Source: Saprospiraceae bacterium (GTDB lineage: Bacteria; Bacteroidota; Bacteroidia; Chitinophagales; Saprospiraceae). Taken from it: 64,000 nt of DNA. The stretch spans positions 116,326 to 180,325 of the forward strand of contig JAJCYH010000018.1 of the NCBI GenBank assembly GCA_029262995.1, in the 5' to 3' direction. This document shows positions 57,038-64,000 of the stretch, in pieces. The position numbers were made by a program, and so were the translations under genes. Position 1 is the stretch's first letter. Each line of letters begins with the position of its first letter. The notes beneath the pieces were generated by a model, which was not told where the DNA came from, ran no database searches, and saw nothing but the letters and a program-made list of their open reading frames with translations.

Positions 57038-57577
57038 TTGGATTTAAGACCCATCATAGAAGGATGTAAACAAAATGACCGGAGGAGTCAGGAAAAGCTG
57101 TACAAACAGTTTTTCAATCCTATGATGTATATGTGTTTAAGGTATATCAAAGATAAAGGAAGGGCTGTTGAAATTATCAATGATGGCTTCGTTAAAGTTT
57201 TCAGCCGAATCCATCAATATGAATACAGAGGAAGTTTTGAAGGTTGGGTAAGAAGAATCGTTTACCATTGTCTGGCAGATAGTTTGAAAAAAGATGCTAA
57301 CTATCTAAAATTCATGGTATTCGAAGAACATGACCAACGTGAAAAGCATAAAATACTGGATAAGCTCTATGAGGAGGATATTTTAAAATTGATTGAAAAA
57401 ATTCCCCCTGCGAGTGGTGATGTATTTCTTATGTATGCCGTTCAAGGATATAATCATAAGGAAATTGCAGAACTAAAGGGAATTAGTATTGGAACCTCAA
57501 AATGGCATTTGTCTGAAGCAAGAAAAAAATTACAGGCATTAATTATAGAAAATTACCAAAGTTCACATGCTGGATAA
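57038..57577 (+). CDS. ECF-type RNA polymerase sigma factor
   Basis: A 179-residue sigma-70 family ECF factor. Region 2 covers roughly residues 15-85 (EKLYKQFFNPMMYMCLRYIKDKG ... IINDGFVKVFSRIHQYEYRGSFEGWVRRIVYHCLAD, cited as GFVKVFSRI and GSFEGWVRRIV). Region 4 covers residues about 120-175 (PPASGDVFLMYAVQGYNHKEIAELKGISIGTSKWHLSEARKKL cited as GYNHKEIAEL and GTSKWHLSEARKKL). The start is a TTG preceded by a purine-rich stretch (AAAGAAGAAA). Its end overlaps the next gene by 11 nt, the classic sigma/anti-sigma coupling. It probably controls the downstream envelope genes. Confidence 0.92.
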   Translation: MDLRPIIEGCKQNDRRSQEKLYKQFFNPMMYMCLRYIKDKGRAVEIINDGFVKVFSRIHQYEYRGSFEGWVRRIVYHCLADSLKKDANYLKFMVFEEHDQREKHKILDKLYEEDILKLIEKIPPASGDVFLMYAVQGYNHKEIAELKGISIGTSKWHLSEARKKLQALIIENYQSSHAG

Positions 57578-58724
57578 GAACGAATTGCAAGATTGGGATA
57601 AGAACTTCGTAGATGAGTCATGGGTGAGTTTGAAACAAAACCTAGATGAAGTTCTGCCAGTGACAAAACCGACAGGTTCAGTTGTGAATCGTACTATGGC
57701 TTTGTTGCTCTTAATATCTATAATATGTCTTACTTACCTCGGTTACCTCTATCAAAATATAACACCTTCTACAACTATTACTAAAGAAATCATTAAATAC
57801 GAAAAAGTATACGTACCTACTTCTTCTCCAGTTGCTGAAACTATACCTCAAAAAACAAGTCGTTTAAGTCAGACACCTGAAAATCACAATGCAAAATCTT
57901 TAACCAATAAATCTGCAACGGAGTCTCAATCAACAAGCTACTCCAATTCGCTAAATCCACTTTCTTCTGGTTTTAGCCTGTTAAATGCAATGAGTTCAAC
58001 TTATACCCCAAAAACTAGAGAAATACAGTTACTAGATCTAATGCCTATAGCAATCTTTGATACAAATGAGAATATTACTTTAAATATGCCATTTACGCCT
58101 GTGCATGATAAGAGCCGTCAGAAAAAATTTAATTTCTTTTTTGCTGCCACAGGATTTATTTCTAATCTGGATTATTCGGGTCATGGCATTAGTATGGGTC
58201 TATTATTACCTCTCAGTAATAAATTTTCAGTCGAAACAGGTATCGGCCTAAACTATATTTCTAAAGATTACCTTATTCTTCCATTTTTTGGAAACCCTTC
58301 TTACAGCGATTTTAAATCTAATGCAACTGCAGATTTAAATAAAGCTAACACCTATTATGAAGGCTTAAGAGGATTTAAACAAATTATTATTCCTTTTGGA
58401 ATCAACTACCATATCTCAAATAAATTATCATTCAATACAGCCGTAAAACTTAGATATACTTACTCAGAAACTATTGACCAAGTTCTTAGGTCAAGAGCTG
58501 AAGAAAAATTATCCAAAAATGAAACTGTTGCCAATTCATTCTTTAACAATTCCAACGTAGGGATTTCTACAGGTATTACATACGATATAAGCAATAGGAT
58601 GAGCTTGAGAATTGACTCAGAATTTGGTTTAAATTCCTTGATAAATAACAAAAACATCACGGACCCCACGTCTCATAAGTATGATTTAAATCTTATCAAC
58701 TTTACAAGTTATTTTAAATTTTAA
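57567..58724 (+). CDS. Membrane protein in anti-sigma position with outer-membrane-type C-domain
   Basis: A 385-residue protein translated together with the ECF sigma (11-nt overlap). The N-terminal about 45 residues are soluble and acidic (LDKNELQDWDKNFVDESWVSLKQNLDE). One hydrophobic helix (residues about 46-64) follows, then a Ser/Thr/Pro-rich linker. The C-terminal part (from about residue 190) has alternating strands with FFFAATGFISNL, MGLLLPLSNKFSVETGIGLNYI and the final FTSYFKF, which looks like a beta-barrel or porin-type domain. Such sigma-sensor hybrids occur in Bacteroidota. Whether the N-terminus binds the sigma factor is an inference; no classical zinc anti-sigma motif is seen. 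Confidence 0.72.
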   Translation: MLDKNELQDWDKNFVDESWVSLKQNLDEVLPVTKPTGSVVNRTMALLLLISIICLTYLGYLYQNITPSTTITKEIIKYEKVYVPTSSPVAETIPQKTSRLSQTPENHNAKSLTNKSATESQSTSYSNSLNPLSSGFSLLNAMSSTYTPKTREIQLLDLMPIAIFDTNENITLNMPFTPVHDKSRQKKFNFFFAATGFISNLDYSGHGISMGLLLPLSNKFSVETGIGLNYISKDYLILPFFGNPSYSDFKSNATADLNKANTYYEGLRGFKQIIIPFGINYHISNKLSFNTAVKLRYTYSETIDQVLRSRAEEKLSKNETVANSFFNNSNVGISTGITYDISNRMSLRIDSEFGLNSLINNKNITDPTSHKYDLNLINFTSYFKF

Positions 58725-58838: not shown

Positions 58839-61800
58839 ATGAATATTACATTATTAATATTTGGCTCTCTATTGTTCTCACAAACTGTAATTGCTCAATC
58901 TTTATCACCCCTCCCTTCAGAAAATATAAAAGAAGAAATATTCCTAGCTGGTAATTTCTTCAAAAAGAATATTAATACAAATTCCATTGAAACCCTGAAT
59001 TATTTCAACACACTAATTGACGCCGATAAAAAACACCAACATAGTTTTCTACTTGGAAATGTAGTTCCTCATAAAGCACTTGAAGAAGATTCCCCCTTTT
59101 ATAATGAATTAACAGAAAATATTGGTAATGTTTTCCAAAGCTTTAAGGATAAATCAAATAATGTCTATTATATCCCTGGTAATAATGAATGGTATGATGG
59201 AGAAGATTATACAGTAAAGGGATTAAAACAAACTGAAAAATTCATTGAATTAAATTCTTCCGAGAAAAATAGATTTCTACCAAGCAAAGGTTGTGGTGAT
59301 CCTCAAATAATTAAACTCGGAAACAAGCTCGTTGTCATCATCATCGATTCTCAATGGATGATGCAGGGAGAATCCTCAAGTGAACGCAAAAAATCATCCT
59401 GTGAAGCTGATAATAATTTTGAATTCATTGCTCATCTTAAAGAGATACTATCAAAACAAAAATCTAAACAAGTTATAATCCTTAGCCACCATCCCGTTTA
59501 TTCAAATGGTAAACTAGGTGGCAACTATCAACTTGTAAATCACCTTTTACCTCTGCCTATACTTGGAACTATTATAACTAGCATTAGAAAGTTGGCCGTA
59601 AACGAACAGTATTTTGGACACCCTGATTATGAAGCATATCGAGCCGCAATGAAATCAGTATTAAACAATTATGAGAATTGTGTAATTGTATCTTCTCATG
59701 AAAATAATCTTCAGTATCATTTTGACAATGCAAATCATTTTGTTACGGTTGGAAGTGGAGTAGACAGTGATTACTGCCGTAAAGCTAATGATGATAATTT
59801 TGCTTTGGGCAAACGTGGCTATAGCAGAATAATTCTTACCGATAAGGAAGCACTGGTTATAGAGCTTTATCAACTCGATGGTACTAGCGGTTCTCAACTT
59901 GTTTATCAAAAAACTATTCCTCCTAAAGTAACCAAACTTGATGATTCTATTTTAATTGAAAGCAAAGAAAACCTAGATGATATCATCAATACTGAAATTA
60001 CTATTGCTGCATCTAAAATGTATAGCAAGAAAAGATTCCTTAGAGGCAAGTTCTATCGCAAAGCATGGCGTACTGAAGTTACAGTTCCAGCTATAATGCT
60101 AAGCAACGAACATGGAGGTTTAAAGCCAGTTCAGCAAGGAGGTGGTTTTCAAACACAATCTTTGAGGTTAGAAAATGATGAAGGCCAACAGTGGGTATTG
60201 CGGAGTGTAAATAAAGATGTTGAAAAAATTGTTCCACCTGAGCTTAGAGGAACATTTGCTCAGAATATGATTCAAGATGGTATTGCTTCATCTCATCCTT
60301 TTGGTGCATTTGCTATTCCACATTTAGCTCAATCAGCAGGAATACTTCACGCCCATCCTAAATTAGTCTATTTACCTTATCAAAAGGCATTAGGAGATTA
60401 TAATGCTGATTTTGGTGAAAAAATATATTTGTATGAGGAAAGACCAGGAGGAAATACAAGCAAATTTGAACACTACGACTTTACAAAGAAAACTATAAAT
60501 ACACTTGATTTATTAGATAATCTTGAAAAGAATCATAAACATGTAGTAGATCAAAAAGCTGTACTGAGAGCTCGGCTTTTTGACATATTTGTCGGAGACT
60601 GGGATCGTCATGATGACCAATGGCGTTGGGCATCATTTGAAGAAGATAACATCACAATATACAAACCTATCCCAAGAGACCGAGATCAAGTTTTTTTTAA
60701 AAATGATGGCATTCTGGACTATCTGGCTAGTAGACCTTATTTCAATCCTGGCCTTAGAAAATTCGACCACAAAATAGATTTCTTGCCAGGACTTATTTTT
60801 AATGCAAGGCATTTTGACCGCAGTTTTCTCAACCAATTAACAAAAGACGATTTTGTTAAAATGGCTGAAGAACTACAACAAAAACTCTCTGACCAAGTCA
60901 TTGATGAGGCATTCTTATCATGGCCCCAAGAAATTCAAGACATCGATGCATATACCATTAAAGACAAATTAAAATCAAGGAGAAAAGATCTGGTCAAATA
61001 TGCAAAAGAATTTTACGATCACATTTTTAAAGAAGTCACAATATCAGGAACAAATGATCAAAATCTATTTCAAATAGAACTACTTGAAAATAATCAACTG
61101 CATGCAAGACTTTATGAAGACAAGAAAAAAAAGAAACACCTCCTTTATGATCAAATTTTAAATGGAAATATTACTAAAGAACTAAGACTTTTTGGCTTAA
61201 GTAAGGATGATGAATTTATAATTGAAGGCGAGTATCCTACAAAAATACTTATTCGTGCAATCGGAGGTAGTGGCGATGATCAACTTATAAATAATAGCGA
61301 AGCCTGTGTGATTGCGTATGATCGTCCAAAGAAAATGGAACTCTCTGGAAGCAATATTAAATCAAAACTAAAAGATGTTAATGGAATAAATAGTTATAAT
61401 CGAAAAGACTGGAAACAAAATAGATTCTGGCAATTTCCTATGCTTAGTTTTTACACCGATGAAGGTATAGGCTTAAGCTATAATATATGGTGGAAAAAAT
61501 TCGGCTTTCGATCAAAACCATTCAAGTCAGATCACAAACTTACAACATCATTCTTCTTTAAAAACAAGGCTATATCATTAAATTATCAATCCTATTATCC
61601 CAATCTAATAAACAAACTAGATGTTGCATTTGATTTGAAATATAATGGACCTAGCTTTACTCAATTCTTTTACGGCTTTGGAAATGAGTATATAGATTTT
61701 GAAGAGCAATATCCACAATTCGCCAATGCAGATGATCAAAGTTTTCACTTTGTAAAAGGAACACACCTAGATTTTAATACACATTTTATTAAAGAATTAA

Positions 61801-62492
61801 ATTCATCGAGCAAACTTCAATTCAATCCTTCTTTTGAATTTTATAATATTAAAAATATGGATGAAGATCCTCGGTTCTATCTGTTATCAGACTCAAATAT
61901 CCCTGAAGTCAGTTTTGAACCCAAATACTATGGGGCTATTGGACTCTCCTTTATAAGTCAACGTTTAGATTTGGCCTCACTTCCATCACAGGGTTATAGT
62001 TTTTCAATATCTGCTGATGGCAAATTAAATTTAACTGATTCCAATTATAAAAGTATAAATCTAAGCACTGAACTATCTGCTTATATACCATTTAATCTAC
62101 AAAAAAGCATTGTTCTTTCTACCTATTTAGGCTATCACCACCTTCTTGGAGACAAGGAATTTTTTCACTACAATTATTTGGCTAGTAAGACAAGACTTAG
62201 GGCCTTTCGCACCAATAGGTTTAGTGGCGATAGAATGGCTTTTCATTCGACTGATCTAAGAATAGGACTACTCAAAAGCAAAGGTGACCTACCAACTGTC
62301 TTTGGTATCATAGCATCTATGGACTATGGAAGAGTATGGCTAAATGATGATAATGAAAATAATAACAAATGGCATACAAGTATTGGTGGTGGTGTTTATT
62401 TTGCTCCCGTTGAACTGGTCGGGTTTAGAGTGTCATATCATAAAGCACCTAGAGAATTTCAACTAAACATAGGAGGAAGTCTCACGTTTTAA
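58839..62492 (+). CDS. Degenerate metallophosphoesterase, kinase-like middle domain and Omp85-type barrel in one protein
   Basis: A 1217-residue exported protein (signal ends near VIAQS). Residues 30-370 have the metallophosphoesterase layout but key ligands are changed: FLAGN (35-39) lacks the Asp of GDAGN, LLGNVV (71-76) lacks that of GDN, GNNEW (114-118) lacks the His and Asp of GNHDW, and SHEN (286-289) loses the second His of GHEH, while HHP (217-219) stays. Residues about 400-830 hold GTFAQNMIQDGIASSHPFGAF, FDIFVGDWDRHDDQW (about 581-595) and PRDRDQVF (about 612-619). DRH followed by D-R-D is reminiscent of HipA/FAM20-type kinase motifs. From about residue 870 strands and the final GGSLTF suggest a BamA/TamA-like 16-strand barrel. 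The gene lies 115 nt after the anti-sigma-like gene and 15 nt before an intact paralogous phosphoesterase. Confidence 0.8.
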   Translation: MNITLLIFGSLLFSQTVIAQSLSPLPSENIKEEIFLAGNFFKKNINTNSIETLNYFNTLIDADKKHQHSFLLGNVVPHKALEEDSPFYNELTENIGNVFQSFKDKSNNVYYIPGNNEWYDGEDYTVKGLKQTEKFIELNSSEKNRFLPSKGCGDPQIIKLGNKLVVIIIDSQWMMQGESSSERKKSSCEADNNFEFIAHLKEILSKQKSKQVIILSHHPVYSNGKLGGNYQLVNHLLPLPILGTIITSIRKLAVNEQYFGHPDYEAYRAAMKSVLNNYENCVIVSSHENNLQYHFDNANHFVTVGSGVDSDYCRKANDDNFALGKRGYSRIILTDKEALVIELYQLDGTSGSQLVYQKTIPPKVTKLDDSILIESKENLDDIINTEITIAASKMYSKKRFLRGKFYRKAWRTEVTVPAIMLSNEHGGLKPVQQGGGFQTQSLRLENDEGQQWVLRSVNKDVEKIVPPELRGTFAQNMIQDGIASSHPFGAFAIPHLAQSAGILHAHPKLVYLPYQKALGDYNADFGEKIYLYEERPGGNTSKFEHYDFTKKTINTLDLLDNLEKNHKHVVDQKAVLRARLFDIFVGDWDRHDDQWRWASFEEDNITIYKPIPRDRDQVFFKNDGILDYLASRPYFNPGLRKFDHKIDFLPGLIFNARHFDRSFLNQLTKDDFVKMAEELQQKLSDQVIDEAFLSWPQEIQDIDAYTIKDKLKSRRKDLVKYAKEFYDHIFKEVTISGTNDQNLFQIELLENNQLHARLYEDKKKKKHLLYDQILNGNITKELRLFGLSKDDEFIIEGEYPTKILIRAIGGSGDDQLINNSEACVIAYDRPKKMELSGSNIKSKLKDVNGINSYNRKDWKQNRFWQFPMLSFYTDEGIGLSYNIWWKKFGFRSKPFKSDHKLTTSFFFKNKAISLNYQSYYPNLINKLDVAFDLKYNGPSFTQFFYGFGNEYIDFEEQYPQFANADDQSFHFVKGTHLDFNTHFIKELNSSSKLQFNPSFEFYNIKNMDEDPRFYLLSDSNIPEVSFEPKYYGAIGLSFISQRLDLASLPSQGYSFSISADGKLNLTDSNYKSINLSTELSAYIPFNLQKSIVLSTYLGYHHLLGDKEFFHYNYLASKTRLRAFRTNRFSGDRMAFHSTDLRIGLLKSKGDLPTVFGIIASMDYGRVWLNDDNENNNKWHTSIGGGVYFAPVELVGFRVSYHKAPREFQLNIGGSLTF

Positions 62493-62507: not shown

Positions 62508-63671
62508 ATGAGGTTTATTAATTCATTTTCAAACTTGTTTCTTTTAACAATCTTGACACTTTCTTGTGTAAGTTACAAGGCCAAATACAGGCATCCTACA
62601 ATTAAAGAATACAACGCAATTACTGAAGAACCAAAATTTACTTTATATCTAATTGGTGATGCTGGTAATGCTCCATCTGGAAAGACTACACCTCTTCTTA
62701 AAACATTAAAAAATGATCTCTCCGAACAAAATAATAAATCTGCAATAGTTTGGTTAGGAGATAACATCTATCCTGTTGGCTTATCCCCTGAACTGGACGA
62801 AGACTATAACTTGGGTAAACACAGGATATTAAAACAACTGGAATGTCTTGATCAATATAATGGATTAATCTATTTTATTCCTGGAAATCATGATTGGTAT
62901 AAATATGGTGCTGAAGGCATTCAAAGGCAGGAACAACTAATTGAAAATTACCTTAGCAATAGAAAACAGAAAAATAAGTATCAGAACAATTATTTTATTC
63001 CAGACAATGCGTGTGGTAAAATTAATGTTTCACACCTTGACGACGAAAAAGTATTAATTCTAATGGACTCTAACTGGTTCCTACTACAGGATCGTCAGCA
63101 ATTTGAACACTGCGATCATTCATCACGTGAATATTTTAAACAACAACTCAGAGATTCCATCAGACACAATATTGACAAACAAATTATTGTTTGCCTTCAC
63201 CACCCCCCCTATACCTATGGGTCCCATGGTTCACATTTCCCTTTTAAAGATAACTTTTTCCCACTTACACAAGTAAAGTCAGCCCTTTGGATACCCCTAC
63301 CAATTGCAGGATTTGTATTCAATAATATGCGGGGCTTTTTTACTGAACAGGACAGTCGTCATTATGCCTACAAACAGTTGAAATCACTATTGGAAGAAGA
63401 ATTATCAAAAGCAAAAAATCCTATAGTCGCCTCTGGTCATGAGCATAACTTACAACATATTTTCAATAATGGAATTGAATATATCGTAAGTGGAGCTGGA
63501 TCAAAAAAGAATCCAATAAAGCTAGGGGAACATTCAGAATTTGCCATAGGCGAAAAAGGTTTTGTCAAAATTTACTTCCTTGAAAAAACTATCGTTATAG
63601 ATTATTTAATAAATTCAGAAGATGGCATCAATATAAAAGTCATCTTTAGAAAAATCATTAATAAAGATTGA
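62508..63671 (+). CDS. Metallophosphoesterase lipoprotein (intact metal motifs)
   Basis: A 387-residue lipoprotein (signal ending TLSC, Cys20) with a complete calcineurin-like phosphoesterase core. The motifs are LIGDAGN (Asp51), WLGDN (Asp85), PGNHDW (Asn127, His128), CLHHPPYTYGSHG (His221-222) and SGHEHNLQ (His301, His303). The sequence around each motif parallels the degenerate N-terminal domain of the gene before it, including YIPGN-type and HHP-type blocks, so the two are paralogues. It is 15 nt downstream of that gene and 5 nt before the next, likely one transcript. Substrate could be a phosphomonoester or diester; not determinable here. Confidence 0.88.
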   Translation: MRFINSFSNLFLLTILTLSCVSYKAKYRHPTIKEYNAITEEPKFTLYLIGDAGNAPSGKTTPLLKTLKNDLSEQNNKSAIVWLGDNIYPVGLSPELDEDYNLGKHRILKQLECLDQYNGLIYFIPGNHDWYKYGAEGIQRQEQLIENYLSNRKQKNKYQNNYFIPDNACGKINVSHLDDEKVLILMDSNWFLLQDRQQFEHCDHSSREYFKQQLRDSIRHNIDKQIIVCLHHPPYTYGSHGSHFPFKDNFFPLTQVKSALWIPLPIAGFVFNNMRGFFTEQDSRHYAYKQLKSLLEEELSKAKNPIVASGHEHNLQHIFNNGIEYIVSGAGSKKNPIKLGEHSEFAIGEKGFVKIYFLEKTIVIDYLINSEDGINIKVIFRKIINKD

Positions 63672-63676
63672 AATTA

Positions 63677-64000
63677 ATGAGCCTTATGAGCACAATTATA
63701 ATTGGATGTATTAGCAATTTTTTAATCATTCTGACATTTATTACTTGCAAAAGCGATAATAGATCATCAGAGCAAGTAGAGACGATCTCTCAGTATATTT
63801 CAATTGATTCCATTCTTCCAGAATATGATTTTTATAAGCCTAGTAAAATATTGACTCTTGGCAAGAAGCTAAAAGAAATATCTGGCTTAAGCTTTGACGA
63901 TCAATCTTCTACTATATTTTCAGTTAATGATGAACAAGGCATTTTATTTCAATTAGAATTATCAAATGGGAATATTATAAAATCTTTTGATTTCGCTAAA
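63677..64000 (+). CDS. SdiA-regulated-family lipoprotein (truncated by window end)
   Basis: A frame begins at the ATG at 63677 (or 63686) and runs off the window with 108 codons visible and no stop. The N-terminus is a lipoprotein signal ending in FITC. The mature part (KELKEISGLSF-like LKEISGLSFDDQSSTIFSVNDEQGILFQLEL, cited as EISGLSFDD and FSVNDEQGILFQ) matches the first blades of the SdiA-regulated (PF06977-type) propeller family. It starts 5 nt after the phosphoesterase gene and belongs to the same unit. Its remaining domains are outside the window. Confidence 0.75.
   Translation, partial: MSLMSTIIIGCISNFLIILTFITCKSDNRSSEQVETISQYISIDSILPEYDFYKPSKILTLGKKLKEISGLSFDDQSSTIFSVNDEQGILFQLELSNGNIIKSFDFAK

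Follow-up and report, generated by a model that had tools for sequence, protein, structure and literature searches.

Type II phosphatidylinositol 4-kinases (PI4K-II; PDB 9hhm, 4yc4, 4hnd) are eukaryotic lipid kinases that have neither phosphoesterase nor barrel partners, and HipA (PF07804) is a cytoplasmic toxin from a toxin-antitoxin pair. HipB is named as the partner of HipA in PMC12189002. A kinase fold shared with these enzymes and with the spore-coat kinase CotH (PF08757; PDB 5jd9, 5jda) occurs in a protein encoded by a 64,000-nucleotide stretch of a Saprospiraceae bacterium (contig JAJCYH010000018.1, positions 116,326 to 180,325; hereafter the window). This protein, P, has 1217 amino acids and is the product of the open reading frame (ORF) that occupies exactly positions 58839-62492 on the + strand; its middle domain is called K, and the phosphoesterase encoded downstream Q. 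Unlike CotH, K is flanked by a phosphoesterase and an Omp85-type barrel; it shares its fold with PI4K-II at 8-11% identity, and HipA matches it less well than PI4K-II or CotH do. No description of the phosphoesterase-K-barrel architecture appeared among the matches listed for titles or abstract openings of open-licence literature.

K (residues ~388-731; 60000..61031, + strand) is a variant of an atypical kinase fold. Its structure model and structural matches give a two-lobed kinase fold of the PI4K-II/CotH/HipA type, with PI4K-II and CotH the closest among the matches listed and HipA behind them. A preliminary description of the window had proposed a HipA- or FAM20C-like kinase here: the kinase-like fold was indeed found, but PI4K-II and CotH rank before HipA, and FAM20C is absent among the 50 structural matches listed for K (no FAM20C profile was compared). 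The two motifs on which the proposal rested, GDWDRHDDQW (from residue 586; 60594-60623, + strand) and PRDRDQVF (from residue 612; 60672-60695, + strand), both lie in K. In profile comparisons with hhalign, 156 K domains scored 37.7 against 25 CotH proteins (E-value 6.6e-4 for one comparison), GDWDRHDDQW and PIPRDRDQVF aligning on the CotH catalytic segment, and 35.5 against 24 HipA proteins (E-value 0.0013), DWDRHDDQW aligning on NCDDHTKNF. The maxima of 40 column shuffles each were 18.5 (CotH) and 23.3 (HipA), and 13 other families (14 control families minus the K family itself) scored 12.5-18.3; a further control with the phosphoesterase alignment was discarded because both inputs shared overlapping sequence. 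At the fold level, then, the kinase reading of K is well supported.

The window's K has no Pfam family at E≤1 and no fitting NCBIfam model, nor is there any Pfam family at E≤1 between the Metallophos and Omp85 matches of P. The CotH model PF08757 was likewise unmatched (the window's K has no family at or below that E-value, and CotH is absent among the 25 families listed of the 39 matched by any of 81 members). Over these 81 K domains, Pfam returned scattered matches, in at most 6 of the 81, which we judged to be due to chance, and NCBIfam a single match in one member. Weak matches to solved structures were obtained with P in phmmer (best E-value 0.31) and with the profile of 81 K domains (best E-value 0.038), and were judged unrelated.

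Residue conservation was followed in a non-random set of 75 proteins: the window's own, 29 from the best whole-genome loci and 45 from 40 regions picked for diversity. Among 39 fused phosphoesterase-K proteins, R455, K459, D582, D587, D589, R590, D614 and D616 are retained in all, and E533, H591, Q594 and R615 in 38; all twelve positions are present in the four K-only proteins. The DRH and DRD positions, singled out earlier for such a check, are thus conserved in homologues. The catalytic aspartate D589 and the later metal-type aspartates D614/D616, found in 39/39 fused proteins, were matched to CotH by profile, with no residue-level superposition. K459, D589, Q594 and D616 occur together in 38/39 fused and 4/4 K-only proteins, in 5/9 proteins made of K and linker (one of the nine being without an aligned core), and in 11/23 K+barrel or open-ended proteins. 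The kinase residues are therefore tightly retained in fusions with a phosphoesterase, whether or not the latter is degraded, and lost in part of the K+barrel group. Because loci L037-L116 were fetched by six peptide patterns that included WDRHDDQW, the invariance of motifs among them is partly circular. At L121 and L122, K+linker paralogues are clustered, two at one locus and three at the other, and one protein of each cluster has serine in place of D589. The K+barrel relatives at L133, L141, L142 and L143 carry R-H-Y or R-Q-Y in place of DRD and are probably pseudokinases.

The N-terminal domain of P (residues ~21-370; 58899..59948, + strand) follows a signal peptide predicted by eye, with an inferred cleavage site, at residues ~1-20 (58839..58898, + strand). 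It has the phosphoesterase/purple acid phosphatase fold, akin to purple acid phosphatase itself (PDB 1ute) and Plasmodium GAP50 (3tgh), and Pfam matches Metallophos at residues 56-233 (25.8 bits against a cut-off of 21.5). Seven motif positions, which we take from motif knowledge to be the metal ligands, were scored with Q as the reference row. P retains only three of them (N, H, H), and thus lacks a complete two-metal set; the other four, which in Q are D, D, H and H, appear in P as N, a gap with an adjacent N, N and N. The domain is a degenerate phosphoesterase, in line with the altered calcineurin-like metal blocks described previously (FLAGN, LLGNVV, GNNEW and SHEN, all located in P). The metal sites of the five nearest relatives (L037-L041) are also degraded, none being intact.

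This state is not general. The phosphoesterase alignment comprises 90 fusions, of which L085, L089 and L099 are cut at the 5' end; among the 87 scored, 55 have all seven ligands and 32 have five or fewer. Whole-genome loci contribute 11 proteins, the window's included, with 8 intact and 3 degraded. A tree was built by a quick method for 86 of the 87 fusions (L069 omitted), using the sequence that starts at K and leaving the phosphoesterase out; on it the intact/degraded label requires 8 changes, of which starred branches force at least 6, losses and gains being counted alike. P belongs to a supported set of six rows, all degraded and, where named, from Saprospiraceae or Saprospirales. On this alignment and tree, the in-cis phosphoesterase appears to have been degraded repeatedly across the fusions.

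The C-terminus of P (residues ~862-1217; 61422..62489, + strand) forms a barrel of the Omp85 superfamily, the type found in BamA, TamA and SAM50, according to both Pfam (Omp85 at residues 925-1186, 32.8 bits against a cut-off of 24) and the model. DSSP delimits 17 barrel segments in the full model; since 971-975 and 978-984 are taken as one broken strand, the count is 16, as had been foreseen from the sequence. Ahead of the barrel lies an all-beta linker (residues ~732-855; 61032..61403, + strand; DSSP on the model). Beginning at model residue 345, the pre-barrel segment holds strands and nothing else, so that no POTRA-like unit is seen in the model (no POTRA profile was run). Unlike BamA, TamA and SAM50, P therefore carries kinase-fold and phosphoesterase domains in front of its barrel and no POTRA-like segment. 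The L6 motif of Omp85 proteins is (V/I/L)RG(F/Y), whereas P has LRAFR; among 113 K proteins longer than 800 amino acids, the G form occurs in 74, the pattern is unmatched in 38, and P alone has LRAFR. Domains N-terminal to the barrel of Omp85 proteins are normally periplasmic. For this reason the suggestion of the preliminary description that the module is carried to the cell surface is unsupported: the domains precede the barrel, and K is also found without a barrel, behind a hydrophobic anchor or lipobox (by eye). We infer that K lies on the periplasmic face.

Matches to K (E≤0.001) occur in 113 of the 296 genomes sampled from the phylum, the window's own included, which places K beyond chance, yet no Pfam or NCBIfam model fits the window's K; the closest relatives with names identify the phylum as Bacteroidota. 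Environmental relatives that can be cultured, such as Larkinella or Fulvivirga, also have the gene. K occurs in phosphoesterase+K+barrel, K+barrel and K+linker proteins and also by itself, preceded by a hydrophobic stretch at the N-terminus; a crude lipobox pattern occurs in 19/87 fusions, 2/24 K+barrel, 3/9 K+linker and 0/4 K-only proteins. At two loci (L123, L124) the parts are split over three successive genes, for K and for a phosphoesterase, each a lipoprotein by eye, and for an Omp85 protein. Gaps of 13 and 6 nucleotides at the two loci separate the K and phosphoesterase genes, and the phosphoesterase and Omp85 genes overlap at a mechanically chosen start. This adjacency of separate genes argues that the three domains work jointly, and the separate Omp85 gene that K need not thread through its own barrel.

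Computation shows the folds of the three domains, conserved residues of catalytic type and linkage of the genes. The explanation we favour, to which we give an even chance, is that P is an extracytoplasmic protein anchored in the outer membrane, that the atypical kinase-fold domain K is its working part, and that a phosphoesterase, here Q in trans, reverses or tunes the action of K. K would bind a nucleotide or other phosphate donor via a metal at D614/D616 and transfer phosphate to a substrate located where the outer membrane faces the periplasm, D589 occupying the catalytic-base position. The in-cis phosphoesterase, intact in 55/87 aligned relatives, would reverse or tune this transfer; in the window's lineage, deprived of its metal site, it may persist for scaffolding or binding. 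The intact lipoprotein Q would replace it in trans, and a probable partner is the propeller lipoprotein, likely encoded in the same operon (see below). More broadly, and with slightly less confidence than that, a widespread but unannotated extracytoplasmic kinase family of Bacteroidota and its phosphatase may form an outer-membrane phosphorylation switch, built as one polypeptide or from separate genes, the in-cis phosphatase being lost repeatedly and replaced by a neighbouring gene in the window's lineage.

Several points weigh against this explanation. Kinase activity is a prediction for every member of the K family, and the periplasm is not known to be rich in ATP. The hhalign probabilities are modest (27% for CotH, 19% for HipA), Foldseek TM-scores are low (0.28-0.33, with root-mean-square deviations of 8-12), and sequence searches of solved structures with P or K revealed no kinase. 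There are two candidates for the beta-3 lysine, both conserved: R455 within the strand and K459 just beyond it. At least one of K459, D589, Q594 and D616 is missing from 12 of the 23 K+barrel or open-ended relatives. The three-gene split comes from two genomes of one genus (g68), and hence from one lineage. Finally, of the degraded fusions, just those of the window and of L039 have a gene for a Q-like stand-alone phosphoesterase within 3 kb, although at several other degraded loci the contig ends soon after the fusion gene; the hand-over to Q is for this reason a reading for the window's lineage and not a rule.

The question arises whether K does something other than phosphorylate proteins. 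It may be a kinase-fold enzyme with another chemistry or substrate, such as AMP transfer, of which SelO is an example within this fold, or phosphorylation of lipids or glycans. The lipid kinase PI4K-II is among the tied best structural matches of K, and a polyphosphate kinase gene within 4.5 kb in 20/121 loci, taken as a raw count, may indicate phosphate metabolism. We regard this as possible but somewhat doubtful; it overlaps with the favoured explanation, so that the likelihoods given here do not sum to one. It is rather unlikely that K is a pseudokinase or ligand-binding domain, which would make P a double pseudo-enzyme serving as sensor or scaffold, for example an outer-membrane receptor for a phosphorylated ligand: binding alone would not obviously require K459, D589, Q594 and D616, the quartet kept in nearly all fused and all K-only proteins.

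An Omp85-dependent autotransporter, whose barrel would bring the N-terminal domains to the cell surface so that K acts outside the cell, has a known analogue in the type Vd patatin autotransporters, and the order of domains in P, ahead of a 16-strand Omp85-type barrel, agrees with it. However, the pre-barrel segment holds strands only and no POTRA-like unit, K also exists without a barrel, and the Omp85 protein is a separate gene at L123 and L124, which together make this mode of action improbable.

If K is active, as the favoured explanation has it, these bacteria would possess a dedicated kinase/phosphatase system in their outer envelope, and the phosphate donor of an extracytoplasmic bacterial kinase would become a testable question. 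The intact, degraded and split phosphoesterases offer a natural series for the origin of pseudo-enzymes and the transfer of their job, and the intact phosphatase encoded beside P, whose own phosphatase domain is degraded, is a hint that the cell envelope holds a so far unstudied phosphate-based switch.

The gene for Q (62508..63671, + strand) starts 15 nucleotides beyond the P stop and encodes a phosphoesterase that stands alone and has intact motifs; a lipobox read by eye (LTLSC) makes it a predicted lipoprotein. P and Q are 24% identical across 324 columns (E-value 2e-31), and the Q motifs match the family consensus of alignment A2, which included 59 of 73 full-length proteins. At the end of Q, at 63668 (TTG) or 63677 (ATG), begins a lipoprotein gene of the SdiA-regulated family (PF06977), whose fold we take to be a propeller; its 5' part occupies 63668..64000 (+ strand) and the gene, ORF L207:5094-6062, runs beyond the window to the equivalent of 64636. 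It gives the genome's only PF06977 match (contig positions 180197-180913). The single strand and tight spacing suggest that the P, Q and propeller genes form an operon. At L039 (1183-10795), two tandem P-size genes with K, the first having no phosphoesterase at E≤0.1 in Pfam, are followed by genes for a DUF6268 protein and for a homologue of Q with 45% identity. A Riemerella metallophosphoesterase is reported to be a phosphatase (Niu et al. 2021, as cited in PMC10281475, PMC12645872 and PMC10202324).

PF06977 occurs in 64 of the 296 genomes and shares 44 of them with K, where 24.4 would be expected (Fisher p 2e-8, related genomes being treated as independent). The two lie within 6 kb of each other in 27 of the 44, PF06977 being upstream on the same strand in 20 of these 27; it is downstream on the same strand in two genomes, the window's being one. 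Within 4.5 kb of K, 56/121 loci have an HD-PycTM gene (for example L049:8497-9699), which encodes an HD-domain protein with a Pycsar effector segment (PycTM), 55/121 a propeller gene, and 15/121 a histidine phosphatase that we take to be SixA-like; these BLAST clusters, like that of polyphosphate kinase, were labelled via one scanned member each, and the counts are non-independent, the loci being related and mostly pattern-selected. The family Lani_1194, also present in Flavobacteriales, was set aside by its description in PMC9758233, where 94% of homologues have a methyltransferase domain.

Upstream of P, a gene for an extracytoplasmic function (ECF)-type sigma factor overlaps the next gene, the pair (57038-58724, + strand) ending 114 nucleotides before P on the same strand. 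The product of the overlapping gene has a soluble N-terminal part, a single hydrophobic stretch (by eye) and a barrel domain of outer-membrane type, and the sigma factor could regulate the genes downstream.
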